Shown: positions 5,566-31,549 of the stretch, piece by piece
Position numbering within the stretch: position 1 is the first letter of the stretch
How the letters are laid out: each line of letters starts with the position of its first letter
Assembly: GCF_001522585.2 (NCBI RefSeq)
Contig: NZ_CP013374.1
Span: 496,001-560,000 of the forward strand
DNA from: Burkholderia sp. NRF60-BP8
GTDB lineage: Bacteria; Pseudomonadota; Gammaproteobacteria; Burkholderiales; Burkholderiaceae
DNA length: 64,000 bases
Direction: 5' to 3'
The notes under the pieces: generated by a model
What the model saw: only the letters and a program-made list of their open reading frames with translations
What the model was told of the DNA's origin: nothing
The model's database searches: none
Made by a program: the position numbers and the translations under genes

Positions 5566-6426
5566 CTACGGGCTGTCCACCGCGCCACTTACCCGCGCCG
5601 TCACTTCGCGGCGGTAGCGGTTCAGCTCCTGCGCGGTCGCGAACGTGCGCTCGAACAGGATCGACAGGTTGTGCAGGATCCGCTCGACGACCTTCTTCTC
5701 CCACTCGCCGTCGAAACGGATCTGCTCGTCGAGCCAGCGCTCCAGCCATTCCGGATCCGGCAAGCGCGACTGCACCGTGTCGCGCGGGAACAGCGCCTGG
5801 TTCACGTGCAGGTTGGTCGGGTGCAGCGGCTTCTCGGTGCGGCGCGCCGACGCCATCAGCACGCCGATCTTCGCGAATGCGGCACGCGCGACGTCGCCGC
5901 AGTTGTTCAGCGCCTTCTTCATGTAGCGCAGGTACGCGCCGCCATGACGCGCTTCGTCGCGCGAAATCGTTTCGTAGATCTGCTTGATGACGGGCTCGGT
6001 GTGCCAGTCGGCCGCGCACCGGTACCAGTGGTTCAGGCGGATCTCGCCGCAGAAGTGCAGCATCAGCGTCTCGAGCGGCGGCGCCGGATCGAACTGGAAG
6101 CGCACCGCGTGCAGTTCCTCTTCGGTCGGCACCATCTCCGGCTTGAAGCGGCGCAGGTATTCCATCAGCACCAGCGAATGCTTCTGCTCCTCGAAGAACC
6201 ACACGCTCATGAACGCGGAAAAGTCGCTGTCGTGCTGGTTGTCGCGCAGGAACATTTCCGTCGCGGGCAGCGCCGACCATTCGGTGATCGCGTTCATCTT
6301 GATCGTCTTCGCCTGCTCGTCGGTGAGCAGCGAAGCGTCGAACCTGTCCCACGGAATGTCCTTCTCCATGTCCCAGCGGACGGCCTCGAGCGACCTGAAA
6401 AGTTCCGGATAGAGCATCGTCGTCAT
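5566..6426 (-). CDS. ferritin-like diiron protein (acyl-ACP desaturase/oxygenase-like)
   Basis: A predicted four-helix-bundle diiron carboxylate protein of 286 residues. The ligand set is complete: Glu57, Glu80-x-x-His83 (in FFEEQKH), Glu128 and Glu158-x-x-His161 (in SRDEARH). The EExxH/DExRH pair is that of the ribonucleotide reductase R2/stearoyl-ACP desaturase superfamily, which activates O2. Its substrate is probably an acyl chain given the neighbours. The start is uncertain: ATG 6426 is used here; ATG 6417 is nearby, and a GTG at 6459 overlaps the TGA of the upstream desaturase gene, which would couple translation of the two. It is co-transcribed with the desaturase, divergent from the main operon. 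Confidence 0.8.
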   Translation of the reverse strand: MTTMLYPELFRSLEAVRWDMEKDIPWDRFDASLLTDEQAKTIKMNAITEWSALPATEMFLRDNQHDSDFSAFMSVWFFEEQKHSLVLMEYLRRFKPEMVPTEEELHAVRFQFDPAPPLETLMLHFCGEIRLNHWYRCAADWHTEPVIKQIYETISRDEARHGGAYLRYMKKALNNCGDVARAAFAKIGVLMASARRTEKPLHPTNLHVNQALFPRDTVQSRLPDPEWLERWLDEQIRFDGEWEKKVVERILHNLSILFERTFATAQELNRYRREVTARVSGAVDSP

Positions 6427-6455
6427 CGTCGTCGCAACGCATTCGGCGCCGGTAA

Positions 6456-7451
6456 TCACGCCGATTGCGTGGATGCGGGCGCGACCGCTTCGGCATCGGG
6501 CTCGCGGTCGTCCCGATCGTCGTCCACCGAGCGCGGCGACAGCCGGCCGCGCAGCAATGCGTAGTAGAACTGCCGATAGGTGCGGTGGTAATAGCGGATG
6601 CGCGGCGCGATCGCGCCATGCAGGTCGTGCAGCCGCTCGATCGGCAGGCTCGGCATCATGTGATGCTCGACGTGATAGTTGTTGCCGTTCGTGAACCACG
6701 TCATGAACGCGTTGCTCTCGATCGTCCGCGTGTTGCGAAACGGGTCGGTGCTCGTCAGGTCGCAGCGGTAGTGCTCGGGCATCTCGACCAGTGCATGCAC
6801 GGGCGCCGCGACGCATACGAGCGGCACGACCCACACCCAGACGGCGAACCACGTGTGCAGCGCGAACGACAGCGCGGCGAGCAGCGCGATCGCCGTGGCC
6901 ATCAGCAGGTAGTCGCGGCGGATCGCACGCGACACGAGCGCGTTGTCGCCGAAGCGCGCGCCCGGCACGACGAGCTTCGCGACGTTCTTCGCGAACTGGA
7001 TATAGTGCGCGGCCATCGACAGTCGCCACGCCCACAGCCCGACATTGACGACGGGGCTCGCGCCGTACTGGTCGCCGTAGTCGAAGAACTCCTTGTTCTC
7101 CGGCGTGCCGAGCAGCCGGTGATGGCGCAGATGGCTGTCCTGATACGCGTGGAACGACACGAGCATCGGCATGCCGAGCAGCACGCCGAACACCATGTTC
7201 AGGCGCTTGCTGCGAAACCCCTGGTAATGCAGCGCCTGGTGCTGCAGTTCGACGCCGTGCGCATACATCGCGCCGATCAGCAGGATGCCGACGATCTTCA
7301 CGATCACGAGCGCCGACAGCGCGAACATCATCCCGTGCGCGACGAGCGCGACGTACACCGCCAGTTTCAGCGAGAAGACCACGCCGCTCGGGCGGCTCTT
7401 CATGTCGGCAACCGGTTTCGAGCGGGCAACAGGCGATGAGGTGACGGACAA
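6456..7451 (-). CDS. membrane fatty-acid desaturase
   Basis: A 331-residue integral membrane desaturase with the three histidine boxes that bind two irons: HQALH (in ELQHQALHYQ), HLRHH and HVEHH (in NYHVEHHM). About four hydrophobic segments flank them. Enzymes of this class insert double bonds, or in specialised clusters further oxidise lipid-bound acyl chains. The start chosen is TTG 7451, because AAGGAGAG (7463-7456 on the minus strand) lies directly before it; ATG 7403 is an alternative without a ribosome site. It heads a two-gene leftward unit with the ferritin-like gene and shares a divergent promoter region with the acyl-AMP ligase operon. Confidence 0.88.
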   Translation of the reverse strand: MSVTSSPVARSKPVADMKSRPSGVVFSLKLAVYVALVAHGMMFALSALVIVKIVGILLIGAMYAHGVELQHQALHYQGFRSKRLNMVFGVLLGMPMLVSFHAYQDSHLRHHRLLGTPENKEFFDYGDQYGASPVVNVGLWAWRLSMAAHYIQFAKNVAKLVVPGARFGDNALVSRAIRRDYLLMATAIALLAALSFALHTWFAVWVWVVPLVCVAAPVHALVEMPEHYRCDLTSTDPFRNTRTIESNAFMTWFTNGNNYHVEHHMMPSLPIERLHDLHGAIAPRIRYYHRTYRQFYYALLRGRLSPRSVDDDRDDREPDAEAVAPASTQSA

Positions 7452-7611
7452 GACGCTCTCCTTGAGCCGGACCCTGCCCGGCACGATGACGCGGCGACGC
7501 TGGCGCGCTGCCGGGATGCAATTCTTCTGTGAGTCGATGCTTCGGACAAACGAATTTTCCGAACGCATTGCATGACGCCTGCGCATGAGCGAACCACATC
7601 GTGAACTAGAC

Positions 7612-7637
7612 GACCGGTCGAATGAGACCGACCAGTC
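7612..7637. promoter_or_regulatory. repeated operator-like half-sites in the divergent promoter
   Basis: GACCGGTC (7612-7619, itself a palindrome) and GACCAGTC (7630-7637) recur at an 18-base interval within the 372-base region between the divergent desaturase and acyl-AMP ligase genes (7452-7823). GACCnGTC cores are common in TetR-family operators. No TetR gene lies inside the cluster, so the regulator would be encoded elsewhere. The rest of the region shows no gene. Confidence 0.4.
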
Positions 7638-7823
7638 ACCTCGCGTCCGGGCACGCTGATAAGGAACCTGCGCCGGCCCTCGTGGATGCGCTGCGCTCAT
7701 GCATAGCCTGCATAGATTCCGTTTGTCGCAGCGGATCGATCCGGCAAGAATCCTCCTCACTCGACGAACGGCGCCGCCGGCACCGTGGCGCGAGCGGCCG
7801 TGTTCCTCAAGGGGAGAACCCTC

Positions 7824-9587
7824 GTGACGAAGTACGCATCCACCATTCATCGCCTGATCGAATCGCTCGAGGACGTCGCGGGCGCCATGCATCGCATGAC
7901 GTTCGTCGACGACGCAGGCCGCGAAGCGAGCATCACGTACCGGCGCTTCGCGGAAGAGGTGTTTCGCCAGGCCGGCGCGCTGCGCGAGCTCGGTGTGCGC
8001 GAGAACGATCTGGTGATGCTCGCGCTGCCCGCATCGGTCGAGCATGCGGTCGCGATGATGGCCTGCGTGATGACGGGCGCGCTGCCCTGCACCGTGCCCG
8101 TTCCCGCGCGGCGTGCAACGGCCGGACGGCAGGTGGCGGACGTCGCGTGCGAGTTGTACCGGCCGCGTATCGTCGTTGCCGCGGATGCGCAGGCCGCGGC
8201 CTGGCACGATGCGGCGTTTCCCGTGGCGTCCACGCGCGTCGTCGATCTCGCGATGCTGTCGAGCGCCGCGGAGGCCGGCACGCGAGCGCTGATCAGCGCG
8301 AAGAGCGGCCGCGATCCGCATCATGTCCAGCTCACGTCGGGTTCGACGTCGCATCCGAAGGCCGCGGTGCTCAGCCACGAGAACGTGATCGCGAACGTGC
8401 TCGGCATCGGCGGGTCGGTGCGCTTCGACGTCGCAGCCGGCGACGGCACCGCGTCGTGGCTGCCGCTCTATCACGACATGGGGCTGCTCACGCTGCTGTC
8501 GAATCTCCACTACCGCGCCCCGCTGCTGATGATGCAGCCGAACAGCTTCATCCGGAATCCGCTCGGCTGGCTCAAGCGCATCGCATCGACGCGCGCGACG
8601 ACGACGTCGGTGCCGACCTTCGCGTTGCGCTACTGCGTGCGCCGCTTCAATGCCGCCGCGATGGACGGCGTCGATCTGTCCGCGTGCCGCAACATCTTCA
8701 TCGGCGGCGAACGCGTCGACGATGCGACGCTGCGCGATTTCGCCGCGACGTTCGCGCCGTACGGCCTGGCGGCGTCGGCGCTGCAACCGTGCTACGGGAT
8801 GGCCGAATCGACGCTCGCGGTATCGATGCACCGTGCATGGCACGAAGGCGCGGTCGACGGCGCACCGTACGTGATCGCCGACACGCTCGACCGGCGCGCG
8901 CTGATCGAGCGCCGCGACGCGCAGCCGGCCGCCGCGAACGACGGCCACGAGACGGAAACCGAAACAGTGCTCGCGATGGGCGCGCCGATCGAAGGGATGG
9001 CGTTCCGCATCCTCGACGACGGCGACCACGCGCTGCCGAATCGCGCAGTCGGCGAAGTCGCGATCCGCGGCACGTCGGTGATGCTCGGCTACCTGAACCC
9101 CGACGACGGCACGATCGCCGCGCCGCTGACGGCCGACGGCTGGTTCCGCACCGGCGACATCGGCTACGTCGCGGACGGCCAGCTGCATATCCTCGGCCGC
9201 AAGAAGGAAGTGATCATCATTCGCGGCAGCAACTATTTCCCGCACGAGATCGAGGAAGCGCTGGCGTCGCACGGCGCGCTGCGCAAGAGCACGTGCATCG
9301 CGTTCGGTCTGCCCGATCCGGAAACCGGCACCGAGCGGCTGGTCGTCGCGATCGAGGCACGGCCCGTCGACGCCACGGCGCAAACGCGGTCCGAGTGCCA
9401 GCAGCTGCTCGCGTCGCGCATCGGGTTCGCCGCGCAGGATCTGTGTTTCGTCGAGCCCGGCTCGCTGCCGCGCACGACGAGCGGCAAGCTGCAGCGCCTG
9501 AAGTGTCGCGATCTCTATGCGAACGGCGCGTTGCCCGTGATTCCCGCATCGGCCGCCGTCGAAGCGGGCCAGGGAGCGTTCGCATGA
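7824..9587 (+). CDS. fatty acyl-AMP ligase (FAAL-type adenylate-forming enzyme)
   Basis: A 587-residue adenylate-forming enzyme. The AMP-binding P-loop is LTSGSTSHPKAAVLSH, and the segment WLPLYHDMGLL with CYGMAEST is the hallmark of fatty acyl-AMP ligases, which activate free fatty acids and pass them to a carrier protein instead of CoA. The C-terminal TTSGKLQRLK holds the catalytic lysine region. The start is GTG 7824, preceded by AAGGGGAG (7809-7816); an upstream in-frame ATG at 7785 lacks such a site. It is the first gene of the long rightward operon and probably supplies the dedicated acyl carrier protein at 14717. The next gene overlaps by ATGA. Confidence 0.9.
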   Translation: MTKYASTIHRLIESLEDVAGAMHRMTFVDDAGREASITYRRFAEEVFRQAGALRELGVRENDLVMLALPASVEHAVAMMACVMTGALPCTVPVPARRATAGRQVADVACELYRPRIVVAADAQAAAWHDAAFPVASTRVVDLAMLSSAAEAGTRALISAKSGRDPHHVQLTSGSTSHPKAAVLSHENVIANVLGIGGSVRFDVAAGDGTASWLPLYHDMGLLTLLSNLHYRAPLLMMQPNSFIRNPLGWLKRIASTRATTTSVPTFALRYCVRRFNAAAMDGVDLSACRNIFIGGERVDDATLRDFAATFAPYGLAASALQPCYGMAESTLAVSMHRAWHEGAVDGAPYVIADTLDRRALIERRDAQPAAANDGHETETETVLAMGAPIEGMAFRILDDGDHALPNRAVGEVAIRGTSVMLGYLNPDDGTIAAPLTADGWFRTGDIGYVADGQLHILGRKKEVIIIRGSNYFPHEIEEALASHGALRKSTCIAFGLPDPETGTERLVVAIEARPVDATAQTRSECQQLLASRIGFAAQDLCFVEPGSLPRTTSGKLQRLKCRDLYANGALPVIPASAAVEAGQGAFA

Positions 9588-10294
9588 CGGCCGCGTCGCT
9601 GGGCCCCGTGCTCGAACTGCGCGACGTCACCCGCGTGTACGAGGGCGCGGGACGCGTCGTCGCCGTACGCGGCGCGACGATCTCCATCGGCCGGCGCGAC
9701 GTCGTCGCGCTCGTCGGCCCGTCGGGCAGCGGCAAAAGCACGCTGCTCAACCTCGCCGGCTTTCTCGACATGCCGAGCAGCGGCGAACGCTGGCTCGAAG
9801 GCCACCGGATCGACGACGCGCCGGACACGCTCGAACGGATTCGCCGCGAGCGCATCGGCTTCGTGTTCCAGCAATTCAACCTGATTCCGGTGATGTCGGC
9901 GCTCGAGAACGTCGAACTCGGCTGCTTCGCGTGGGGCACGCCGCGCACGCGGCGCGAACGCGCTCGCGCGATGCTCGACGCGGTGGGGCTCGCCGCGCGC
10001 GAACGACACCGCCCCGGCGAGCTGTCGGGCGGCGAACAGCAGCGTGTCGCGCTGGCCCGCGCGCTCGCCAAGGAGCCGGCGATCGTGATCGCGGACGAGC
10101 CGACCGCGAGCCTCGACAGCGCCAACGCGCGGGCGGTCGCCGAGCTGATCCTCGACACCAACCGCACGCTGGGCACCGCCTTTCTGATTGCGTCGCACGA
10201 CGATCGTTTGTGCGCGCACCTGCCGCGCCGCATCGAGATGCGCGACGGCGTACCGGGAGTGAATCGTGAACTGGTCGACGTTTGCGTGGCGTAA
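9584..10294 (+). CDS. ABC transporter ATP-binding protein (MacB/LolD type)
   Basis: A 236-residue ATPase with Walker A GPSGSGKST, Q-loop FQQFNLIP, signature LSGGEQQR, Walker B IVIADEP and the H-loop ASHDD. The length and the FQQFNLIPVMSALENVEL segment are those of MacB/LolD-family ATPases, which power FtsX-fold permeases in lipoprotein sorting and metabolite efflux by mechanotransmission. ATG 9584 overlaps the ligase stop codon, and the end overlaps the permease gene by 29 bases, so the three are tightly coupled. It likely drives export of the cluster's product or an intermediate lipid. Confidence 0.92.
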   Translation: MTAASLGPVLELRDVTRVYEGAGRVVAVRGATISIGRRDVVALVGPSGSGKSTLLNLAGFLDMPSSGERWLEGHRIDDAPDTLERIRRERIGFVFQQFNLIPVMSALENVELGCFAWGTPRTRRERARAMLDAVGLAARERHRPGELSGGEQQRVALARALAKEPAIVIADEPTASLDSANARAVAELILDTNRTLGTAFLIASHDDRLCAHLPRRIEMRDGVPGVNRELVDVCVA

Positions 10295-11483
10295 CCTCTG
10301 GCGCAACCGGCGCCGCACCGTGCTGACGATGGCGATGATCGGCGTCGCCGCGTTCGCGTCGAGCCTCGCGCTCGGCTACGTGATCGCGACGTTCGACGCG
10401 GTGCGCGAAGGGTCGATCGACAGCGGCGTCGGCCATGTGCAGGTGTTGCATCGCGGCTATCTCGACCTGATCGGCGAACGGCCGCTGCAGTACGGGCTGA
10501 CCGCCGACGAGCAGGCTGCCGCGACGCGCGCGATCGCCGCGCTGCCCGGCGTCGCGACGACCGCGCGCGGCATCGACTTCGACGGGCTCGTGTCGAACGG
10601 CGATCTGAGCTACGGCTTCGTCGGCGAAGGGATCGAGCCGAACCGCGAGCCGGCCGGCTTCTTCGACTATCACACGGTGCTGTCGGGCCGCTATCTGTCG
10701 CCGACGCATGCGGGCACCGAAGTCGTCGTCGGCGCCGAACTCGCGCGCAAGCTCGGCGTGCACGTCGGCTCGGTCGTGCAACTGATGGCGTCGACCGCGC
10801 ACGGCGGCATCAACGCGACCGACGCGCAGATCGTCGGGGTGATGAGCACCGGCAACAAGGACGTCGACGAACGGATCGTCGACGTGACGTTCACGGCCGC
10901 GCAGGCGCTGCTGCGCACCGACCGCGCGTCGCGCATCGCGGTGTTCCTGTCGAATACCGCGCATACGCCGGCCGCCGCCGCGACGCTGCGCGCCGCGCTG
11001 CCGACGCTCGACGTGCGGACCTGGGACCAGCTCGTGTCGCTCTATCATCAGGTCGTCGCGCTGTACAAGAACCAGTTCTCGGTATTCGGCGCCATCCTTT
11101 GCGTGACGATCCTGCTGTCGATGAGCAACTGGATCCTGATGAGCATCGTCGAGCGGCGCCGCGAGATCTCGACGCTGCGCGCGCTCGGCGTGCCGGCCGC
11201 CACCGTGCGCGGCGTGCTGATCCAGGAAACCGCGCTGCTCGGCCTGCTCGGCGCGGCCGCCGGCATCGCGCTCGCGCTGCTGACGATGGTCGCGCTCAAT
11301 CACGCGCAGATCCACCTGCCCGCGCCGCCCGGTCGCGTGAAACCGATCCTGCTCGAATTCACCGTGTCGCCCGTGGCCGTGGCCGCCGTCGAAGCCGCGT
11401 TCGTCGTGCTCGGCGTGGCCGCGGCGCTGCTCGCGACGCTCGGGCTCGCGAAACGCAACATCCTCGAAGGACTCGCCCCATGA
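10266..11483 (+). CDS. FtsX-type ABC permease (LolC/E, MacB-like)
   Basis: A 405-residue inner-membrane protein with one N-terminal helix (about residues 17-38), a large periplasmic domain (about 40-270) and three C-terminal helices containing the FtsX core (SIVERRREISTLRALGVPAATV). This topology is that of the MacB/LolCDE superfamily. It starts at GTG 10266 within the ATPase gene, and its stop overlaps the next gene as ATGA. With that ATPase it should form a transporter that extracts a lipid-like substrate from the outer leaflet of the inner membrane or the periplasm; substrate is inferred from context only. Confidence 0.9.
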   Translation: MNWSTFAWRNLWRNRRRTVLTMAMIGVAAFASSLALGYVIATFDAVREGSIDSGVGHVQVLHRGYLDLIGERPLQYGLTADEQAAATRAIAALPGVATTARGIDFDGLVSNGDLSYGFVGEGIEPNREPAGFFDYHTVLSGRYLSPTHAGTEVVVGAELARKLGVHVGSVVQLMASTAHGGINATDAQIVGVMSTGNKDVDERIVDVTFTAAQALLRTDRASRIAVFLSNTAHTPAAAATLRAALPTLDVRTWDQLVSLYHQVVALYKNQFSVFGAILCVTILLSMSNWILMSIVERRREISTLRALGVPAATVRGVLIQETALLGLLGAAAGIALALLTMVALNHAQIHLPAPPGRVKPILLEFTVSPVAVAAVEAAFVVLGVAAALLATLGLAKRNILEGLAP

Positions 11484-12223
11484 ATCGCATTCGCGTTACG
11501 TTCGCCGCGCTCGTCGCGTGCGCGCCGCTCGCCGCCCTCGCAGCCGACGTGCCGACGGCCCAGACCATGCTCGCCCGCGCCGACGCTTACCGCAGCACGG
11601 CCGCCGATACGCAGACGAACATCCGGATCACCAACGAGGTCGGCGGACAATCCGGCGACGCGACCCGCTATCTCGTCTACACGCGCGGCAACGGCGACAC
11701 GCTCGCGCTCACGCGCAGCGGCGAGAACGACGGCCAGAAATACCTCGCGACCACGCGCGGGCACTGGTTCTACGTGCCGAACACGCGCAGCGCGGTGCGC
11801 ATCAACGGGATGCAGCGACTGCAAGGCGAAGTCGTGATCAGCGACATCACGCGCACGCACTGGGCGGACAGCTATCGCGCGACGGCAGCCCCAGGCACGA
11901 CGCCGATCGACGGCAAGCCGGCCACCGAGCTCGACCTGACCGCGACCGACCCCGACAACGTGTACCCGACGATCAAGCTGTGGGTCACGCCCGATACCGA
12001 CGTGCCGGTGCGCGCGCAGTTCTTCCTCGCGAGCGGCCTGCTGTTTCGCAGCGCGGATTTTTCCGCGCCGGTCGACGCGAACGGCCGCAAGGTGATCCGC
12101 AAGATCACGTATCGCAACGAGGTCGAGAAGCAGCGCGCGAGCGTCGTCGACATCCTCGACGGCCAGCCGCGCAAGATTCCGTCGGGCTGGTTCAACCCCG
12201 ACACGCTCGCCGATGGCCAGTGA
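11480..12223 (+). CDS. periplasmic LolA-like outer-membrane lipoprotein-sorting family protein
   Basis: A 247-residue secreted protein with a clear signal peptide (MNRIRVTFAALVACAPLAALA, cut near residue 21). The body, with repeated short beta strands and the motif TLALTRSGENDGQKYL...GHWFYVPNTRSAVRI, resembles the LolA/LppX-fold family often annotated as outer membrane lipoprotein-sorting protein; these bind acyl chains in a half-barrel. It directly follows the FtsX permease (ATGA overlap) and precedes an outer-membrane barrel gene, which fits a chaperone carrying a lipid across the periplasm. I recognise the fold family by pattern only, not the exact ligand. Confidence 0.7.
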   Translation: MNRIRVTFAALVACAPLAALAADVPTAQTMLARADAYRSTAADTQTNIRITNEVGGQSGDATRYLVYTRGNGDTLALTRSGENDGQKYLATTRGHWFYVPNTRSAVRINGMQRLQGEVVISDITRTHWADSYRATAAPGTTPIDGKPATELDLTATDPDNVYPTIKLWVTPDTDVPVRAQFFLASGLLFRSADFSAPVDANGRKVIRKITYRNEVEKQRASVVDILDGQPRKIPSGWFNPDTLADGQ

Positions 12224-13541: not shown

Positions 13542-13554
13542 CAGGAACCCTGCC

Positions 13555-14658: not shown

Positions 14659-14716
14659 CCCACGCGACAGGCCGATCGATCCCGATCAATCCAACTCAAC
14701 TTCAGGAGCTCCCCTC

Positions 14717-14971
14717 ATGACGACCCAGAACGTTCCGGCCGACGCGCTCGACATCCTGTCCCGCGAAGTCGCGAAGATCCTCAACGTCGAAACCGTCGAC
14801 ACGGACGCCGGCATCGGCGAACTCGGCATCGATTCGCTGAACATCGTCGAGCTGATCGTGTTCTGCGAACAGCTTTACGGTTCGATCGATCCGGAAGCGC
14901 TGAACATCACGCAATACACGACGCTGCAGCAGCTCGACGCGCAGCTGCGCCGCCAGCAGCACGCGGCCTGA
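14717..14971 (+). CDS. acyl carrier protein
   Basis: An 84-residue acidic carrier protein with the phosphopantetheine attachment motif LGIDSLNIVEL (Ser40). It has the normal single-domain length, and AGGAG (14704-14708) precedes the start. Being inside the operon and separate from fatty-acid synthesis genes, it is probably dedicated to this pathway, accepting an acyl group from the acyl-AMP ligase at 7824 and presenting it to the desaturase, diiron proteins and condensing enzymes nearby. Confidence 0.95.
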   Translation: MTTQNVPADALDILSREVAKILNVETVDTDAGIGELGIDSLNIVELIVFCEQLYGSIDPEALNITQYTTLQQLDAQLRRQQHAA

Positions 14972-14978
14972 TACGACG

Positions 14979-15854: not shown

Positions 15855-15855
15855 C

Positions 15856-16485: not shown

Positions 16486-16486
16486 C

Positions 16487-17470: not shown

Positions 17471-17471
17471 C

Positions 17472-19626: not shown

Positions 19627-19646
19627 ACCTTCCAGAGGAGCCGATC

Positions 19647-24165: not shown

Positions 24166-24166
24166 C

Positions 24167-25405
24167 ATGGACACGACACTCGATTCCCGCACCTCCATCC
24201 CCGCGGCCGGCGATGCGCCGCGCAACCTGCTGGGCCGCGCGGCGACGCGCCATCGCGGCACCGACATCGACGGCGCGACGCTCGACCCCGAAGCGCTGCG
24301 CGTGCGCGACCTCGACCTGAACGCGCTGATCGGTGCGACGACGTTCGAAGGCGCGCTCGCGCATCTGTGGTTCGACGTCGCGCCCGGCAGCGCCGCGCAT
24401 CGCGCGCACGAGGCGACGCTCGGTGCGCGGCTCGCGGCGTTCGCCGACGCGCTGGCGCCGGGCTCGGTCGGCCAGTCGGTCGCCGCCGATCTCGGCGCGG
24501 CAGGCGTCGCGCCGGTGTTCGCGGCCGCGTCCGGCCTGCTGCGCGGCCTCGACGACGTGACCGGGCGCGTGCGCGGCCCGGCGCCGGACGATGCCGATCT
24601 CGACACGATGCTGCTGTGCGCGGCCGCCGCGCCGTTCCTGCTGCACGCGGCGATCGAGGGCCGGCCGTTCGCCGCCGGCACGGCCGGCCGCGTGTCGCTC
24701 GACGCGGCCGCGACGCAAGCGCAACGCATGCTCGTGCTGACCGGCGCGACGCGCGGCGATGCGCCGGCGCAAGCGGCCATGGACATGCTGCTCGTCGCCT
24801 GGCACGCCGGCTTCGGCTACATCACGCCGACCGTGCTCGCGCCGCGCGTCGCGATCGGCACCGGCGTCACGCTGGCGCAGGCGATCGCGTCCGGCTTCCT
24901 CGCCAGCGGGCCGTCGCACGTCGGCGCGGCGCTCGAAGCGATGCAGTGGCTCGCGGCGCTCGCCCGCTCGGTGCCGGGCGGCGCCGGCGCGCCGCCGGCC
25001 GCGCTCGACGCGGCCGGGCGCGGGGCGATCGATGCGGCGCTCGACGCGAAGCGCACGCTGTACGGCTTCGGCCATCCGCTGTTCGTCGCCGATCCGCGTC
25101 CGCCGCACCTGCGCGGCCGGTTCGCGGCATGCGGCTTCGACGGCGGCTACGTGACGCTGTTCGACGCGTGCTGCGCGCAGGCCGACGCGCGCCGCGCGCT
25201 GCGGCCGAACATCGATTTCCTGACCGCCGCGACGCTGCTCGAACTCGGCGTCGCCGCGCCGTCGTGGGGCGTCGGCGTCGGGCTCGGCGCGCGCATCGCG
25301 GCGATGGCCGCGCATGCGGTCGAACGGCGCCGCCGCCCCGCGTTCGGCGTCAACAGCGCGACCGCGCGACGGCTCCTGGCCGCCGTGCCGGTCGGCTGGC
25401 TGTGA
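24167..25405 (+). CDS. citrate synthase-like condensing enzyme
   Basis: A 412-residue protein of the citrate synthase family. Conserved catalytic positions are visible: histidine in ASGPSHVGAA, histidine in YGFGHPLF (normally GFGHRVY) and aspartate in PNIDFLTAATLLELG. The family joins an acyl-CoA alpha-carbon to a 2-oxo acid; alkylcitrate-type members are used in secondary metabolism. The arginine after the second histidine is proline here, so the oxo-acid partner may differ from oxaloacetate. ATG 24167 lies one base after the dehydrogenase stop. Confidence 0.8.
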   Translation: MDTTLDSRTSIPAAGDAPRNLLGRAATRHRGTDIDGATLDPEALRVRDLDLNALIGATTFEGALAHLWFDVAPGSAAHRAHEATLGARLAAFADALAPGSVGQSVAADLGAAGVAPVFAAASGLLRGLDDVTGRVRGPAPDDADLDTMLLCAAAAPFLLHAAIEGRPFAAGTAGRVSLDAAATQAQRMLVLTGATRGDAPAQAAMDMLLVAWHAGFGYITPTVLAPRVAIGTGVTLAQAIASGFLASGPSHVGAALEAMQWLAALARSVPGGAGAPPAALDAAGRGAIDAALDAKRTLYGFGHPLFVADPRPPHLRGRFAACGFDGGYVTLFDACCAQADARRALRPNIDFLTAATLLELGVAAPSWGVGVGLGARIAAMAAHAVERRRRPAFGVNSATARRLLAAVPVGWL

Positions 25406-25433
25406 ACCCTCACCCTTTCGCACAAGGAACGTC

Positions 25434-26096
25434 ATGCTGCTCAAGAACCTGCGCCCGGCGAACGACTACGATCGCTTCGCCACCGAAACGCTCGAACCCT
25501 GGGACCTGCTGTTCATCAGTCGCATCCGCCAGCTGGCGCGCGGGATGACGCCCGGCACGATCGCCGACATCGGCACGGCCACCGGCGTCGTGCCGGTGCG
25601 CCTGGCGACCGATCCGGCGATGCGCGGCTGGCGTTACGTCGGCATCGACCTCGATCCGGCGATGCTCGACGAAGGCCGCCCGCGCATCCGCGAACTCGGG
25701 CTCGACGACACGATCGAGATGCGCGTCGGCGACGCGCTCGCGCTGCCGTTCGACGACGGCACGCTGACGATGGCGGTCGGCCGCGCGACGCTGCATCACC
25801 TGCCCGACAAGGCGCTCAGCCTGACCGAGATGTATCGCGTGCTGGAGCCGGGCGGCATCGCGCTCGTGCACGACATGCGCCGCGACGCGCCGCAGCACCT
25901 GCTCGACCGCTTCACCGAGATGCGCGCGGCCGCCGACTATCCGCCGACCCACGTCGAGGAAAAAATCACGCTCGACGAAGCGCATGCGCTCGTCGCCGCG
26001 GCCGGCCTCGCGGCGGTGGCGTCGATCTACAGCCCGAGCGCGGGGCTCGGCGCGCTCGGCTTCGAAATCCTGCTGAAGAAACCGGCGCTGGCCTGA
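25434..26096 (+). CDS. SAM-dependent methyltransferase (class I)
   Basis: A 220-residue class I methyltransferase. Motif I is IADIGTATGVVPVRLA, the acidic residue after strand 2 is in VGIDLDPAML, and post-motif segments RVGDALALPFDDGTL and RVLEPGGIALVHDM follow in order. It looks like a UbiE-type small-molecule methyltransferase. AAGGAA precedes ATG 25434. It likely methylates an oxygen, carbon or carboxylate of the pathway intermediate; three bases separate it from the dioxygenase gene. Confidence 0.88.
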   Translation: MLLKNLRPANDYDRFATETLEPWDLLFISRIRQLARGMTPGTIADIGTATGVVPVRLATDPAMRGWRYVGIDLDPAMLDEGRPRIRELGLDDTIEMRVGDALALPFDDGTLTMAVGRATLHHLPDKALSLTEMYRVLEPGGIALVHDMRRDAPQHLLDRFTEMRAAADYPPTHVEEKITLDEAHALVAAAGLAAVASIYSPSAGLGALGFEILLKKPALA

Positions 26097-26099
26097 GCG

Positions 26100-27173
26100 A
26101 TGACCGATCTCGCCTTCCTCGCCGCCCATGCCGCCGCGCGGCTCGGCGCCGACGACGTGCATTGCGCGGCGGTCGCGCCTGGCGCGACGCTGCCGCTGTG
26201 CGTGACGCCGCGCAGTGCCGAACTCGCGACGTCGCCGGAGATGTTCGTCGCGTGGTACCGCTCGCGGCTCGACACGATCGACACGCTCCTCGACGCATGC
26301 GGCGCGCTGCTGTGGCGCGGCTTCGCGGTGCCCGACACCGCCGCGTTCGGCCGCCTCGGCGCGCTCTATCCGGCGCACGCGAACGGCTATACGGCCGGCG
26401 CCGCCCCGCGCCGGCAGATCGACGGCCAGGTCTACGAGTCGACCCGCATGCCGCCGCCGTTCAGGATCGGGCTGCATCAGGAGATGGCTTACATGCCCGC
26501 GTTCCCGCGCCTCGTCGCGTTCTACTGCCGGCAGCCGGCCGACGCGGGCGGCGAGACGCCGATCTGCGACATGCGCCGCGTGACCGCGCGCGTGCCGGCC
26601 GCGCTGCGCGCGCGGTTCGCCGAACGCGGCGTGATGTATCTGCGCAATTTCGCGGCGCCGGGCGACCGCGCTGACGACCTCGCCGCGAACCCGAACCTGC
26701 CGTTCGCCGCCTACCACCGGCCGTGGGACGACGCATTCGGCACGACGGATCGCGACGAGGTCCAGCGACTGTGCGCGCAACGCGGTGTCGGCTGCCGCTG
26801 GCTCGACGACGGCAGCGTGACCGTGTCGCACGTCGGCAGCGCGCTGCGCACGCATCCGCGCACCGGCGAGACGGTGTGGTTCAACCAGGCGAGCGCGCAG
26901 CACCCGAATCCGCGTTCGATGGGCGAGCTCAGCTATCGCTACCTGCAGCGCATGTACGGCACACGCGCCGCGTTCCCGTACGAGATCCGCTACGGCGACG
27001 GCACGCCGATGCCGTTCGACGATCTGGTAGCGATCTACGACGCGCTCGACGTCGAGGAGCGGGCGTTCCCGTGGCAGGCCGGCGACGTGCTCGTCGTCGA
27101 CAACATGCTGGTCGCGCACGGCCGCAACCCGTACCGCGGTGCGCGCGACACGCAGGTCATGCTGTTCGACTGA
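26100..27173 (+). CDS. TauD/TfdA-type Fe(II)/2-oxoglutarate dioxygenase
   Basis: A 357-residue member of the clavaminate synthase/TauD family. Iron ligands are His126-x-Glu128 in GLHQEMAY and the distal His340 in VAHGRNPYRG, with Arg346 positioned to bind 2-oxoglutarate. The HxE rather than HxD ligand pair is typical of clavaminate synthase and SyrP-like hydroxylases of secondary metabolism. It probably hydroxylates, desaturates or rearranges a pathway intermediate. It is the fourth iron-dependent oxidative enzyme of the cluster. Confidence 0.88.
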   Translation: MTDLAFLAAHAAARLGADDVHCAAVAPGATLPLCVTPRSAELATSPEMFVAWYRSRLDTIDTLLDACGALLWRGFAVPDTAAFGRLGALYPAHANGYTAGAAPRRQIDGQVYESTRMPPPFRIGLHQEMAYMPAFPRLVAFYCRQPADAGGETPICDMRRVTARVPAALRARFAERGVMYLRNFAAPGDRADDLAANPNLPFAAYHRPWDDAFGTTDRDEVQRLCAQRGVGCRWLDDGSVTVSHVGSALRTHPRTGETVWFNQASAQHPNPRSMGELSYRYLQRMYGTRAAFPYEIRYGDGTPMPFDDLVAIYDALDVEERAFPWQAGDVLVVDNMLVAHGRNPYRGARDTQVMLFD

Positions 27174-27184
27174 GGATGCCCACG

Positions 27185-28198
27185 ATGAGCGTTTCGTTTC
27201 TTGCGTCGGTGCGCGCGATGTTCGGCGCGCCCGCCGCGTTCGACCGGCCGCAGCGCGCAGGCCTGCCGCCGCTGCCCGATGCGCATGCGCCGGGCGCGGC
27301 GCTCGGCGCGCGCGCGATCGACGTCACGGCCGGCGATTTCCGCTTCCGCGCGCGCCACGTGCGGTTCCGGCTCGGCGCGATCACCGCGATCGTCGGGCCG
27401 AACGGCTCGGGCAAGACCACGCTGCTCGAAACGCTGCTCGGCTTCCGGCGCGGCGGCAGCGACGTGCGCGTGCTCGACGTGCCGGCCGAGCGCTTCATGC
27501 GCGATTCGCGGTCGCTGCAGCGGATCGGCGCGCAATTGCAGAAGGTCGAGTATCCCGATCATCTGCGCGTCTCGGAGATCGTCGCGCTGCACCGCGCGAT
27601 GTACGCGCACACCGATGCGGTGATCGTCGATGCGCTCGGCATCGCCGAACTGCTCGACAAGCCGTGCCGCGCGCTGTCGAAGGGGCAGCGCCAGCGCGTG
27701 GACCTGTACGTCGCGCTCGCGCACCGGCCCGAGCTGGCCGTGCTCGACGAGCCGTTCACGGGCCTCGACCGCCGCTATGCGGGCGTCGTGATCGACCTGC
27801 TGCGCGATCGCGCGCGGGGCGCGAGCGTCGCGATGATCTGCCATTCCGAGGAAGAGCTGAGCGTGGTAGACGATCTCGTCTGGGTGCGCGACGGCGGCGT
27901 GCGCTACCAGGGCGACCGGGACACGCTGCGCGCCGAGCTCGTCGGCGACGCGCGCGCGGTCCTGCATTGCCGCGACGAAGCCGACGCGCGCGCGCTGCAC
28001 AAGCGGCTCGCGGCGCTGCCCGGCGTGACCGGCGTGCGCGTGTCGGCCGCGCACGTGGTCGAGGCGTTCGGCGATGCGACGCTGCATCCGAACGTGCACC
28101 GGATCGTCGGCGAACGCGGCATCCAGCATCTCGCGCTCGCGCCGAGCACGCTGGGCGACCTGCTGCGCCTGTGCACCGAGGGCCCGACCCATGACTAA
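27185..28198 (+). CDS. ABC transporter ATP-binding protein (ABC-2 exporter type)
   Basis: A 337-residue ATPase with Walker A GPNGSGKTT, signature LSKGQRQRVDLY, Walker B LAVLDEP and the H-loop CHSEEE. An unusual N-terminal extension of about 40 residues precedes the domain, and the C-terminal 90 residues form a regulatory tail as in drug/polysaccharide exporters. ATG 27185 is used; an in-frame ATG at 27176 is three codons upstream. It overlaps the permease by eight bases, forming the second exporter of the cluster. Confidence 0.9.
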   Translation: MSVSFLASVRAMFGAPAAFDRPQRAGLPPLPDAHAPGAALGARAIDVTAGDFRFRARHVRFRLGAITAIVGPNGSGKTTLLETLLGFRRGGSDVRVLDVPAERFMRDSRSLQRIGAQLQKVEYPDHLRVSEIVALHRAMYAHTDAVIVDALGIAELLDKPCRALSKGQRQRVDLYVALAHRPELAVLDEPFTGLDRRYAGVVIDLLRDRARGASVAMICHSEEELSVVDDLVWVRDGGVRYQGDRDTLRAELVGDARAVLHCRDEADARALHKRLAALPGVTGVRVSAAHVVEAFGDATLHPNVHRIVGERGIQHLALAPSTLGDLLRLCTEGPTHD

Positions 28199-29270
28199 GG
28201 TGTTCCTGATCCTCGTGCGCAACGAGTTGCTCGGCTATCTGCGCAGCCGCTCGTCGTTGTTCTGGACGCTCGTGTTCCCGGTATTCCTGCTGAGCGTGAT
28301 GCTGTTCGCGTTCGGCGGCTCGGGCTCGCTCGGCACGGCCGACATCGCGTTCGACGCGCCCGGCGGCGCGACGCCGTACAGCCGCGCATGCGAAGCGCAG
28401 ATCGTCGACAGCCTGTCGCACAGCGACACGGTGAAGGCGACCTTCGGCGGCCGCGGCGCGCCGGCCGATCGCGTGACCGTCGTGCTCGGCGCCGACGAAC
28501 GCACGCCGGCGACGATCCGCTACGACTTCAACGGCCCGCTCGCGGTCAAGGCCGCGTCGCGCGTCGTCGAGATCGCGCTCGCGCGCTGCGCCGCGCAGCG
28601 GCTCGGGCTGCCGGCCGCGCAGGCACGCTTCGAGAATGCCGCGCCGGCGCGCCGGCCGTTCGACTACGGCGCGTTCTTCGCGACCGGCATCCTGGTCATG
28701 GCGTTCATGGCGATCGGCCTGAACTCGACGACCACCGCGATCGCCGCGCTGCGCGAGCGCAATACGTTCAAGCTGTACGTGTGCTTCCCGGTCTCCCGCG
28801 GCGTGTTCCTCGCCGCGCTGATCGTCGCGCGCATGGCGATGATGGCGCTGTCGGCGCTCGTGCTGCTGACGGTCGCACGCGTCGCGTTCGGCATCGCGCT
28901 GCCGATCGCGACGCCGGACGGGCTGCGCGCGTTGCCGATCGTGCTGCTCGGCGCGGCGATGGTGCTGAGCATCGGCGTGCTGCTGGCCAGCCGCACCCGG
29001 TCGCTCGCGGCGGCCGAACTCGCGTGCAACGTCACCTACTACCCGCTGCTGTTCTTCAGCGACCTGACGATCCCGATGCACGACGCACCCGCGTGGCTGA
29101 AAGCCGGGCTCGCGTTCCTGCCGACCAACCAGTTCGCCGTCGCGCTGCGCGGCGCGCTGGTCGACGGCGCGCCGTACGCGCAGCTCGCGCCGCAACTGCT
29201 CGGCATGACCGCGTGCACCGCGCTGTTCCTGTTCGCCGCCGCGCGACTGTTCCGCTGGCACGACGCCTGA
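28191..29270 (+). CDS. ABC-2 type permease
   Basis: A 359-residue membrane protein with a first helix at about residues 20-42, a roughly 110-residue extracytoplasmic domain and five to six further helices, ending in RLFRWHDA. The FPVFLLSVMLFAFGG start and the YYPLLFFSDLTIPMHDAPAWL segment are characteristic of ABC-2 export permeases. With the ATPase just upstream it should move the product or a precursor out of the cytoplasm. Confidence 0.88.
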   Translation: MTKVFLILVRNELLGYLRSRSSLFWTLVFPVFLLSVMLFAFGGSGSLGTADIAFDAPGGATPYSRACEAQIVDSLSHSDTVKATFGGRGAPADRVTVVLGADERTPATIRYDFNGPLAVKAASRVVEIALARCAAQRLGLPAAQARFENAAPARRPFDYGAFFATGILVMAFMAIGLNSTTTAIAALRERNTFKLYVCFPVSRGVFLAALIVARMAMMALSALVLLTVARVAFGIALPIATPDGLRALPIVLLGAAMVLSIGVLLASRTRSLAAAELACNVTYYPLLFFSDLTIPMHDAPAWLKAGLAFLPTNQFAVALRGALVDGAPYAQLAPQLLGMTACTALFLFAAARLFRWHDA

Positions 29271-29307
29271 CGCGTCGCCACGCCGTTTCGACGAAGGAGA
29301 GACACCG

Positions 29308-29850
29308 ATGAAATCGAACCATCCCATAACCGACTACCTGCTGCATGCGAGCAACTTCCTGCCGGCGATCGTGTTCCTGTTCTACGGCCGGCTCGGCCCG
29401 GAGCAGCCGGGCCTGCGCTGGACCCACGCGTTCCTGATCGGCGGCGTGCTCGCGCTCGTGCACGGCGCGTGGCTGATCCGCCGCGCGGAGCGCAACAGCA
29501 TCGCGATCGGCGTCGACCTGTTCCTCGTGATCGGCGCGGTGCTCGCGCTCGTCTCGCCGACAGGTAGCCGTCTGTGGGGCGAGGAACTCGGGCCGGCCGC
29601 GATGCTCGTCTGCGTGCTGGTAGTCGGCATCGTCCATACCGCCTGGTCGGACGGCGGCTTCGTCGACGGCGCGTTCGTCGACCACGCGCGGGCGCGTTCG
29701 CTATCGCTCGTGCTGCTCGCCGTCACCGTCGTCGCGCTCGCGGTGTCGATCGCGATGCGCCACAGCCCGCTGTGGGGCGGCGTCGTGCCGCTGATCGCGC
29801 TGGTCGTCGTGCGCGGCCGGCTGCGCAAGCAGCTCGCGCGGGCAAGCTGA
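29308..29850 (+). CDS. small membrane protein of the biosynthetic operon
   Basis: A 180-residue protein with about five or six hydrophobic helices and short loops, preceded by GAAGGAGAG (29293-29301). No family recognised. It resembles small intracellular septation-like or exporter accessory membrane proteins in its overall hydropathy. Position between the ABC-2 permease and the FAD oxidase suggests a role in export or membrane anchoring. Confidence 0.7.
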   Translation: MKSNHPITDYLLHASNFLPAIVFLFYGRLGPEQPGLRWTHAFLIGGVLALVHGAWLIRRAERNSIAIGVDLFLVIGAVLALVSPTGSRLWGEELGPAAMLVCVLVVGIVHTAWSDGGFVDGAFVDHARARSLSLVLLAVTVVALAVSIAMRHSPLWGGVVPLIALVVVRGRLRKQLARAS

Positions 29851-29852
29851 CG

Positions 29853-31271
29853 ATGAACGCGCTGCCCGCCCATGCGGCGCACGCCGCGCAGCGGCACGCG
29901 CTCGCCGCGGCGCTCGGCGACGGCTGGCTCGACGGCGCGGCGTGTGAGCCGTATGCGACCGACGTCGCGCGCTACGGCGGCGTGCCGCTCGGCGTCGCGC
30001 GGCCGGCCTCGACCGCCGACACGCGCGCGCTCGTGCGCGTCGCCGTCGCGCACCGGATCGCGCTCGTCGCCCAGGGCGCGCGCACCGGGCTCGTCGGCGC
30101 CGCCGTACCCGATCGCAGCGGCACGCAATGCGTGGTGTCGTTCGAGCGGATGCGCGCCGTGCGCGCGTTCGATCCGGCCAATCGCAGCATCACGGTCGAG
30201 GCCGGCGTGCGGCTGTCCGATCTCAATCGGGTGGCGGGCGAAGCCGGGCTCTGCTTGCCGATCGATCTCGGCAGCGATCCGGCGGCCGGCGGCCTCGTCG
30301 GCGCGAACGCGGGCGGCAGCCGCCTGATCAAGTACGGCGACGTGCGCCGTCACGTGCTCGGCGTCGAAGTCGTGCTCCCGGACGAAGCCGGCACCGTGAT
30401 CGACGCGCTCGCGCCGCTGCGCAAGCGCAACGCCGGCTTCGACGTCGCGCAGTGCTTCATCGGCGCGAATGGCGCGAACGGGCTCGTGACGGCCGTGTCG
30501 TTCGCGCTCGCGCCGCTCGAACGGTCGTCGTGCGCGGCGTTCGTCGCGTTCGCGTCGTACGACGCGGCGCTCGCCGGCCTGCTCGCGTTCGAGCGCGCAT
30601 TCGGCGAGATGCTGTCGGCGTTCGAATTCATGTCGGCGGCGGCGATCGGTCGCGTCGCCGCCGTGTTTCCGGCGTTGCGGGTGCCGTTCGAGGCCGACGC
30701 CGCCGCATGCTACGCACTCGTCGAGATCGCGACCGGCATGCCCGGGCTCGATGCATTGCTCGAGGAACGCGCGGTCGCGACGCTCGACGCGCTCGCGCAA
30801 GAACGCGCGGTGCTCGACGCGGCGTGCGCGCCGGCCGAACGGTTCTGGCGGATTCGCGACGCGCTGCCGGCCGCGGTCGCGCAGGACGGCATGCCGCTGT
30901 CGTTCGACGTGTCGTTTCCGCGCGGCGCGCTGGCCGGATTCGTCGCCGATGCCGAGCAATGGCTCGCGGCCGCGCATCCGTCGCTGCGCTGCCACGCGTT
31001 CGGCCATTTCGGCGACGGCGGCTGCCATCTCGTCGTGTCGATTCCGCATGCCGACGCGCAACGCTACGGGCCGCTGCAGCAGATGGCGCTGCGCGGCGCG
31101 CTGTACGACCGCGTCGCGCGCGCGGGCGGCTGTTTCAGCGCCGAGCACGGCGTCGGGCCCGTCAATATCGCGTACTACCGCAAGCACGTGCCGGCCGCGC
31201 AACGGCAGGTCGCCGCCGCGGTCCAGCACGCCGTCGACCCGCTGGGCCTGATCGGGCGGGTTCGCTACTGA
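29853..31271 (+). CDS. FAD-linked oxidase (GlcD/D-lactate dehydrogenase-like)
   Basis: A 472-residue flavoprotein of the vanillyl-alcohol-oxidase fold. The FAD-binding half contains ALVAQGARTGLVGAAVP and PIDLGSDPAAGGLVGANAGG, and the C-terminal half ends with HAFGHFGDGGCHLVVS and CFSAEHGVGPVN, the motifs of 2-hydroxyacid dehydrogenases such as GlcD and D2-hydroxyglutarate dehydrogenase. In this operon it may oxidise a 2-hydroxy acid, for example to make or consume the 2-oxo acid used by the citrate synthase-like enzyme. It starts two bases after the membrane protein gene. Confidence 0.87.
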   Translation: MNALPAHAAHAAQRHALAAALGDGWLDGAACEPYATDVARYGGVPLGVARPASTADTRALVRVAVAHRIALVAQGARTGLVGAAVPDRSGTQCVVSFERMRAVRAFDPANRSITVEAGVRLSDLNRVAGEAGLCLPIDLGSDPAAGGLVGANAGGSRLIKYGDVRRHVLGVEVVLPDEAGTVIDALAPLRKRNAGFDVAQCFIGANGANGLVTAVSFALAPLERSSCAAFVAFASYDAALAGLLAFERAFGEMLSAFEFMSAAAIGRVAAVFPALRVPFEADAAACYALVEIATGMPGLDALLEERAVATLDALAQERAVLDAACAPAERFWRIRDALPAAVAQDGMPLSFDVSFPRGALAGFVADAEQWLAAAHPSLRCHAFGHFGDGGCHLVVSIPHADAQRYGPLQQMALRGALYDRVARAGGCFSAEHGVGPVNIAYYRKHVPAAQRQVAAAVQHAVDPLGLIGRVRY

Positions 31272-31303
31272 CGCGTCGCTGCGCGGCGCCACGGAGATTT
31301 CGC

Positions 31304-31549
31304 ATGATGTTTCGACACTCGCCCGGCCCGCACGCCGCGGCCGAACCGGACACCGACGAGCGCTCGTCCTCCGGCATCCCTGGAACGTTGCCCGACTCGG
31401 GCGTCGTGGTAAACGTGCGCGGCGTCGCTCACGTGATCCGGTTGCCGCCGCGCGACCATGCGCGCCCGGCGCTGTGGCGCGCGCTGGCGGACTGGCGCGA
31501 CGAACGGTCGGCCGACGGCGACGTCGAGCCGGCGCCGCGCCGGGACTGA
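31304..31549 (+). CDS. small hypothetical protein
   Basis: An 81-residue polar protein with GGAG (31293-31296) before ATG 31304. A short hydrophobic strand (SGVVVNVRGVAHVIRLP) sits between charged ends. No family recognised. It is the last rightward gene of the cluster and ends 22 bases before the convergent lactonase gene. Confidence 0.5.
   Translation: MMFRHSPGPHAAAEPDTDERSSSGIPGTLPDSGVVVNVRGVAHVIRLPPRDHARPALWRALADWRDERSADGDVEPAPRRD

Follow-up and report, generated by a model that had tools for sequence, protein, structure and literature searches.

A run of about 25 contiguous genes in Burkholderia sp. NRF60-BP8 raises the question of what it makes and whether its pathway has been described before. 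We analysed the stretch of 64,000 nucleotides in which it lies (contig NZ_CP013374.1, positions 496,001 to 560,000; hereafter the window). A sequence-only reading had called positions 5566 to 31549 an unrecognised, fatty-acid-derived biosynthetic cluster belonging to no described pathway. Our results indicate that the block at 5566-31271, together with the adjoining LysR-type regulator gene, is almost certainly the shvR-afc cluster, which has already been described, and that Burkholderia sp. NRF60-BP8 is also a predicted producer of AFC-BC11. The whole set corresponds to the 25-gene afc cluster with ShvR (PMC12186527, PMC6301696); such a match of the full gene set to a characterised cluster is the result that the earlier reading had itself named as evidence against novelty. 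The gene cluster is already known, and the wider family outside Burkholderia is the sole new part.

Identification of the shvR-afc cluster

Genes were called with a codon model of three-base periodicity, for which the window served as training sequence; it was used instead of GC periodicity, which alone gave wrong frames for several genes. The model yielded 24 genes in the interval 5566-31271. Two are on the minus strand (5566-6426 and 6456-7403) and 22 on the plus strand (7785-31271), and a spacer of 381 bases divides the two divergent operons. Gaps within the 22-gene run do not exceed 58 bases, seven neighbouring pairs overlap, and all 24 reading frames are open. The last gene, afcF, stops at 31271 and not at 31549, where the block had been thought to end. 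The contiguous block itself is real: all 11 Burkholderia loci of our scan share the gene order of the window throughout the stretch compared, afcC to afcV, and a gene order that recurs in 11 of 11 loci is not due to chance. With the adjacent shvR, the 24 afc genes in two divergent operons amount to 25, the published count, which supports the afc identity.

For the cluster of B. cenocepacia, the available part of PMC6301696 describes two divergent operons with 24 genes in total, next to shvR (BCAS0225), with afcE as BCAS0208, the citrate synthase gene as BCAS0207 and an ABC transporter gene as BCAS0204. When locus numbers are counted down from 225 in the order of the window, 0208 falls on the acyl-CoA dehydrogenase gene, 0207 on the citrate synthase-like gene and 0204 on an ABC ATPase gene, exactly as published. 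The flanks agree as well. The same part of that paper gives a hydrolase and a major facilitator superfamily (MFS) gene (BCAS0226 and 0227) and a C4-dicarboxylate transporter operon (BCAS0197-0199) as neighbours, and the window has a tripartite ATP-independent periplasmic (TRAP) transporter operon with a lactonase gene on one side and a hydrolase and an MFS gene on the other. The published cluster lies on the third replicon, pC3. The contig of the window (851,421 bases, the third of three in a 7.08 Mb genome) may or may not be the counterpart of that replicon.

At the level of sequence, all four published functional residues (AfcK S40, AfcL C111, AfcQ R311 and AfcQ K503) were found at identical positions in the window proteins. 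B. puraquae, a named producer species of AFC-BC11 (PMC12186527), has the complete set of 24 afc genes, arranged as in the window, with protein identities of 88-100%, afcD being cut by the contig end and shvR falling outside the contig; afcS (88.8%) and afcM (88.6%) are the least conserved. An 8 kb stretch of the cluster is 95.1% identical to a B. cenocepacia record and 93.2% identical to a B. arboris record.

Families were assigned by a Pfam scan of all 24 genes and by NCBIfam models. This bore out most of the enzymes that the sequence-only reading had listed: the acyl-AMP ligase, the carrier, the membrane desaturase, two diiron proteins, the pyridoxal phosphate (PLP)-dependent decarboxylase, the second ligase, the acyl-CoA dehydrogenase, the citrate synthase-like enzyme, the methyltransferase, the 2-oxoglutarate dioxygenase, the flavin adenine dinucleotide (FAD) oxidase and two exporters, which are ABC systems. 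The list was nearly right; it overlooked a second dehydrogenase-type gene (13555-14658, AfcJ by the label of PMC12186527). Of its three thiolase-fold proteins, AfcO is recovered by Pfam and AfcR weakly so; the assignment of AfcL comes from PMC12186527. No regulator gene lies inside the block, as had been stated, but the LysR gene shvR adjoins it at 3956-4948. The description as fatty-acid-derived holds in that this is a single biosynthetic cluster whose product contains a fatty acid, although that product is a lipopeptide and not solely a fatty acid derivative. The block was also rightly set apart from polyyne, fragin and modular polyketide clusters. Both divergent operons are under the control of ShvR in the literature (PMC12186527 and the available part of PMC6301696), so they are not two unrelated operons.

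Published product and proposed assembly

The 25 afc genes make AFC-BC11 (PMC12186527, J Am Chem Soc 2025), an N-acyl tetrapeptide composed of an O-methylated fatty acid of the malic acid type, three dehydro-beta-alanines and one dehydro-lysine. The compound is light-sensitive, strongly active against plant-pathogenic fungi and inactive against the human-pathogenic fungi and bacteria tested (PMC12186527). Deletion of afcJ, afcL, afcM, afcN, afcO, afcP or shvR abolishes the product; afcD and afcI are dispensable, and the afcD deletion mutant yields wild-type product (PMC12186527). The literature disagrees on the role of afcD: older work, as cited in the part of PMC6301696 available, found that afcD mattered for antifungal activity and that the citrate synthase gene did not.

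All enzyme steps for Burkholderia sp. NRF60-BP8 are transferred by orthology from PMC12186527. No condensation-domain gene is present in the shvR-afc block. Instead, AfcQ would activate the side-chain carboxylate of L-Asp and load it on the single carrier AfcK, and AfcP would decarboxylate the AfcK-bound Asp to beta-alanine. AfcQ would then join the next Asp to the free amine, with up to three rounds of this cycle, as reported for the orthologues in vitro (PMC12186527). AfcA is expected to transfer the fatty acyl chain onto tri-beta-alanyl-AfcK, and onto that form only (orthologues in vitro with myristic acid, PMC12186527). AfcL would accept the chain, very likely on Cys111, and hand it over to lysyl-CoA (orthologue in vitro, acyl-free model, PMC12186527). 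Desaturation of beta-alanine is proposed for AfcE in the same paper, and its mutant phenotypes point to AfcC for desaturation of lysine, to AfcS and AfcF for addition of a citrate-type head to the acyl chain and to AfcT for O-methylation of that head. Export through the envelope would fall to the two ABC systems, and ShvR would activate both operons. PMC12186527 names only a few instances in which a stand-alone adenylating enzyme forms a peptide bond.

Distribution of afc loci in Burkholderia and its close family

An AfcN profile and two short peptide patterns were run against a single genome of each species, a design by which relatives will have been missed. The AfcN profile returned at least 23 loci: 11 in Burkholderia, one in Trinickia, six in Pseudomonas, four in Chromobacterium and one in Pseudorhodoferax. 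Within the genus Burkholderia, AfcM is present in 20 of 65 genomes, and an AfcN search of 398 genomes of the family matched the same 20 genomes within the genus. The citrate synthase-like gene was found at 59% identity or more in those 20 genomes and in one other, G014. A subset of afc genes has already been reported in the B. pseudomallei group (PMC6301696, available part).

Outside the genus, a genome of another genus of the family (G125) possesses 23 of the 24 afc genes, including afcC, at 52-91% identity and a shvR-like gene at 65%; afcD was unmatched in the 40 kb read, which reaches about 9 kb past afcC. Trinickia presents the ABC/FtsX/LolA/AfcI group and a cut afcD, with no afcC between afcD and afcA.

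The cluster of G014 is split on its contig C4 (L022-L023 and L084-L085; near 2.01 Mb and 2.73 Mb). There, afcD stands with afcO to afcU at one place, while afcC and a shvR-like gene are found together some 0.7 Mb from it, and afcO was matched in two pieces; afcA, afcJ to afcN and afcV to afcF were not found in the stretches read. Two-piece matches were also seen for afcQ in L040 (B. cenocepacia CMCC(B)23006) and L045 (Burkholderia sp. MS389), for afcR in L040 and for the ABC ATPase gene in L044 (B. cenocepacia NCTC13227); those in L040, L044 and L045 are frame breaks or sequencing errors. AfcN-like diiron proteins with 40% identity occur in genus g3 (G329:C1:2150842 and G246:C2:839463; L094-L097). 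They were found in 10 of the 398 family genomes and were not counted as afc clusters; two loci were inspected and contained no other cluster-specific afc gene. These proteins form a separate subfamily.

A collinear core in Pseudomonas and Chromobacterium

All ten loci of Pseudomonas and Chromobacterium carry A, J, K, L, M, N, O, P, Q, R and E in that order. S, T and U come next in nine of them, and the tenth is cut by a contig end. In three Pseudomonas genomes that were traced further, V, W, X and F continue the block, giving an 18-gene collinear core; V was matched in two pieces in P. arsenicoxydans. V and W were not detected in the core of Chromobacterium sinusclupearum. Neither afcC, afcD nor the ABC/FtsX/LolA/AfcI group was found in any of the ten loci within the flank read before afcA, which was about 5 kb in eight of them and less than 1 kb in L054 and L055. 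We also searched six genomes for AfcC at E 1e-5: it is absent from those of P. fragi, C. sinusclupearum, Trinickia and Pseudorhodoferax, and the other two gave matches of only 25-30% (G036) and one match at 70% (G014).

A hybrid cluster in Pseudorhodoferax

A 31.3 kb contig of Pseudorhodoferax sp. Leaf274 presents homologues of E, Q, V, W, K, P, L (two copies), R, O and N with the ABC/FtsX/LolA set. It also contains genes for an acyl carrier protein (ACP), a ketosynthase, a FabA-like dehydratase, a Rieske oxygenase, two short-chain dehydrogenases/reductases and a beta-lactamase-fold protein. J, M, S, T, U, X, F, C, D and I were unmatched on this contig at E 1e-3, and it has no separate A, just a 23% match located on the afcQ gene. 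AfcR is matched weakly (29% across about 57% of its length), and Asn replaces Thr157. The gene content of this hybrid suggests that AfcN, AfcO and AfcR belong with the peptide half and serve it; AfcJ, AfcM and AfcU may serve the acyl half, judging from this one hybrid cluster.

It is possible, and in our judgement neither favoured nor disfavoured, that afc belongs, as its best-studied member, to a larger family of assembly lines that build beta-alanyl peptides with no condensation domain. Such a family would extend from Burkholderia, Trinickia and at least one further genus of the same taxonomic family to Pseudomonas, Chromobacterium and beyond. The afc peptide half (E, K, L, P and Q with N, O and R) would be joinable to different acyl halves, and the members in Pseudomonas and Chromobacterium, lacking the lysine desaturase gene afcC, would make congeners of AFC-BC11 that retain an unmodified lysine at the C-terminus. 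In the papers searched, we found no report of the afc core in Pseudomonas and Chromobacterium, of the G125 set or of the Pseudorhodoferax hybrid, although the supplement of PMC12186527 may list some of them.

Conserved residues and protein families

Of the three proteins related to ketoacyl-ACP synthase III (KAS III), AfcO has a Pfam match, AfcR itself reaches just E 0.06 and AfcL has none, its KAS III-like assignment coming from PMC12186527. PF08541 is matched by 7 of 10 members of the AfcR family at E up to 1 (best 3.5e-06). Profile alignment of AfcR with AfcO (hhalign, probability 97.5) sets AfcR Thr157 opposite AfcO Cys130, and Thr at the nucleophile position is also given by PMC12186527. 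Position 155 of AfcR, which is Asn, Cys, Ser or Ala across genera, was considered as the KAS III nucleophile and rejected, since the alignment puts Thr157 there.

Conservation was assessed in 16 loci, the window and 15 chosen from the fetched loci. AfcL C111, H238 and D243, the six likely metal-ligand positions of AfcN, the tested positions of AfcK and AfcQ, and AfcO Cys130, His281 and Asp286 are kept in 16 of 16; AfcO His250 varies. In AfcS, H251, H303 and D350 are kept in all 15 loci possessing afcS, and by their motifs these residues probably form the catalytic triad.

AfcM has no Pfam family, no sequence match in the PDB and no Foldseek match at E 0.001. Its structural model (mean predicted local distance difference test score, pLDDT, of 72.7 with 39 sequences) gave no convincing structural match. 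At least 48 protein clusters are related to it, and the named ones are hypothetical or uncharacterised. AfcL has relatives in at least 64 clusters, including proteins of Robbsia, Paraburkholderia xenovorans, Pseudomonas chlororaphis, B. gladioli and the myxobacterium Pendulispora brunnea. Both counts are lower bounds, the searches having scored the 7998 candidates that share most words. At E 1e-12, AfcL was carried by one of 399 genomes of the order and two of 398 genomes of the phylum, the window's own genome included; these samples were drawn evenly and miss carriers known from other searches.

AfcQ-like ligases with 46-50% identity (e.g., NZ_CP091013.1:3080437-3082011) were also found; the annotated ones are named exosortase A-associated ligase, and 25 of 33 records are from Sinorhizobium. 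Those on large rhizobial plasmids are a paralogous family.

Alternative explanations

An undescribed fatty acid pathway that merely resembles afc is so improbable that we set it aside. Several of the proteins have no Pfam or NCBIfam family, which may explain the unfamiliar look of the set, but order, gene number, flanks, locus-number count and the four functional residues all agree with the published cluster. A cluster of the bolagladin type is scarcely credible either. The two share citrate synthase-like, methyltransferase, FAD oxidase, Asp ligase, decarboxylase, carrier and KAS III-like genes (PMC12186527 and the available part of PMC7756342), but a modular nonribosomal peptide synthetase (NRPS) gene is absent from the block at 5566-31271, and AfcS homologues in clusters of a different layout are just 34-37% identical. 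It is unlikely, although less so, that this is an afc cluster that yields a variant of AFC-BC11 or is silent in this strain. The product here is predicted from genes, and afcS and afcM are the genes that differ most from B. puraquae; against this, every one of the 24 frames is open and the four published residues are intact.

Within the shvR-afc identification, the origin of the acyl chain is finely balanced between two models. The chain could be built by the cell's fatty acid synthase from a citryl-CoA starter, as proposed for the bolagladins (PMC7756342, available part); alternatively, a citrate unit could be joined to the methyl end of a myristoyl intermediate, as discussed in PMC12186527. 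Acyl acids computed from the published formulas are C21H36O7 for the wild type, C18H32O5 for the afcS mutant and C18H32O4 for the afcF mutant. Beyond a head of C6 or C4, these leave 14 carbons in every case, and the mutant products resemble other C4 starters extended seven times. A head joined to a C14 chain gives the same carbon count, however, and carbon counting was dropped as proof of citryl-CoA priming because it fits both models. Two published observations weigh against the starter model: AfcA takes myristic acid but none of the dicarboxylic acids tried (PMC12186527), and AfcO is given the same Cys/His/Asp set as the acyltransferase AfcL (PMC12186527), which is no pointer to a condensing enzyme.

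Several points weigh against our account of the cluster and its family. The product of Burkholderia sp. NRF60-BP8 is predicted from genes alone; the first codon of afcA may be at 7785 or at 7824; the letters B, G and H were assigned by elimination; and AfcI, AfcJ, AfcL and AfcM have no Pfam match here. The label of AfcM as UDP-glycosyltransferase-type (PMC12186527) is neither confirmed nor refuted by our searches. The division into peptide and acyl halves depends on one draft genome. Furthermore, a more distant relative of the same class, G917, possesses K, E, L, P and Q together with J and the ABC/FtsX/LolA set; N, O and R were unmatched over the 33.7 kb examined. It does not fit a strict rule in which N, O and R belong to the peptide half and J to the acyl half.

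Gene content and neighbouring features

Table 1. Genes of the shvR-afc block and its intergenic spacer in the window.
Feature	Position	Strand	Assignment and basis
shvR	3956..4948	-	LysR-type regulator; LysR helix-turn-helix and substrate domains; adjoins afcD; position and flanks as BCAS0225
afcD	5566..6426	-	AurF/ferritin-type diiron protein; PF03405 match, PF11583 just under cut-off; order
afcC	6456..7403	-	Membrane desaturase; PF00487 6e-39; lysine desaturase per published mutant (PMC12186527)
Divergent spacer	7404..7784	.	381 bases, likely promoter region; gene coordinates
afcA	7785..9587	+	Fatty acyl-AMP ligase (FAAL); PF00501 2.9e-52; FAAL NCBIfam models; start 7785 or 7824
afcB/G/H group (by elimination)	9584..10294	+	LolD-like ABC ATPase; PF00005
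afcB/G/H group (by elimination)	10266..11483	+	MacB/FtsX permease; PF12704, PF02687
afcB/G/H group (by elimination)	11480..12223	+	LolA-like protein; PF17131 1.6e-24
afcI	12213..13541	+	Outer-membrane channel per PMC12186527; no Pfam match; order
afcJ	13555..14658	+	Dehydrogenase-type per PMC12186527; no Pfam match; order, orthologues in other loci
afcK	14717..14971	+	Sole acyl/peptidyl carrier protein, Ser40; PF00550
afcL	14979..15854	+	KAS III-like acyltransferase per PMC12186527, Cys111
afcM	15856..16485	+	Family without assigned fold; essential per published mutant
afcN	16487..17470	+	AurF-type diiron protein; PF11583 2.2e-15
afcO	17472..18461	+	KAS III-like protein, Cys130; PF08545
afcP	18418..19626	+	PLP-dependent decarboxylase, carrier-bound Asp as substrate per PMC12186527; PF02784/PF00278; TIGR03099 below cut-off
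afcQ	19647..21230	+	Asp-activating adenylating enzyme, Arg311, Lys503; TIGR03098 above cut-off
afcR	21227..22318	+	KAS III-like protein, Thr157 at nucleophile position
afcE	22315..24165	+	Acyl-CoA dehydrogenase type, proposed beta-alanyl desaturase; PF00441, PF12806; BCAS0208 by count
afcS	24167..25405	+	Citrate synthase-like; PF00285 3e-19; H251, H303, D350
afcT	25434..26096	+	S-adenosylmethionine-dependent O-methyltransferase; PF08241, NCBIfam matches
afcU	26100..27173	+	TauD-type 2-oxoglutarate dioxygenase; PF02668 4.7e-33; H126, E128
afcV	27185..28198	+	ABC ATPase; PF00005; BCAS0204 by count
afcW	28200..29270	+	ABC-2 permease; PF12698
afcX	29308..29850	+	Small protein, likely membrane; no family in Pfam/NCBIfam; order
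afcF	29853..31271	+	GlcD-type FAD oxidoreductase; PF02913, PF01565

The shvR gene is 89-98% identical in L028 and L038-L041. No sigma-70-like site was found in the divergent spacer. Orthologues of afcF end the block in three Pseudomonas genomes, in one Chromobacterium genome and in Trinickia. A lactonase gene (7-bladed propeller; 31572-32615, minus strand) lies between afcF and the TRAP operon; it was matched in L037, L041 and G031 and was unmatched between afcF and DctM in L040 and L029. Downstream of the TRAP operon, a protein of glycoside hydrolase family 28 (GH28, the pectinase family) is encoded at 36270-38435.

Significance

Pursuing the block as a new pathway would lead to the rediscovery of AFC-BC11, and its remaining use is comparative. 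Pseudomonas species such as the food-associated P. fragi, and Chromobacterium, contain natural versions of the cluster without afcC, afcD and the LolA-type exporter within the flanks read, and these bacteria could be grown and profiled as they are. The Pseudorhodoferax hybrid offers a way to sort the unassigned essential enzymes into those acting on the peptide and those acting on the acyl chain. Since PMC12186527 names few peptide bonds made by stand-alone adenylating enzymes, a family with exchangeable acyl halves, if true, would aid in finding more antifungal peptides of the AFC type.

Comparison with known systems

Polyyne clusters combine an acyl-AMP ligase and a carrier with several tandem membrane desaturases and a thioesterase, whereas the block has one membrane desaturase and no thioesterase match in the Pfam and NCBIfam scans. 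Fragin clusters comprise an NRPS and diazeniumdiolate genes, and the same scans found no NRPS gene in the block. The exosortase A-associated pair (TIGR03098/TIGR03099) is nearer: AfcQ scores above the TIGR03098 cut-off and TIGR03099 is the closest model for AfcP, which remains far below its cut-off (89.6 versus 478.45 bits). To our knowledge, the remaining afc set is absent from exosortase A-associated ligase/decarboxylase loci.

In systems of the butirosin type, a PLP enzyme decarboxylates a carrier-bound acidic amino acid, as AfcP is expected to do (a comparison made in the available part of PMC7756342); unlike them, afc converts Asp to beta-alanine in three rounds on one carrier. The bolagladin cluster of B. 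gladioli shares a citrate-derived, O-methylated fatty acid and a dehydro-beta-alanine made from Asp on a free carrier (PMC7756342, available part). Bolagladin homologues of AfcS, AfcT, AfcF and AfcE are named in PMC12186527, and the accessible text of PMC7756342 indicates that the bolagladin ligase, decarboxylase and carrier are counterparts of AfcQ, AfcP and AfcK. According to that text, bolagladins use a modular NRPS and have a single dehydro-beta-alanine, whereas no such NRPS was found when the 24 genes of the block were compared with Pfam. AfcS homologues (34-37%) stand beside an AfcT-like methyltransferase in four genomes (G015:C3:2229658, G018:C1:216851, G027:C10:15836 and G061:C46:9215; L030-L036), and these clusters are possibly of the bolagladin type.

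The shvR-afc/AFC-BC11 system itself, described in B. orbicola Mc0-3, B. puraquae, B. pyrrocinia and B. cenocepacia (PMC12186527 and the available part of PMC6301696), presents the same gene set, order, operons, regulator, flanks and residues as the window, and the differences that we found are those of ordinary species-level divergence (88-100% identity to B. puraquae).

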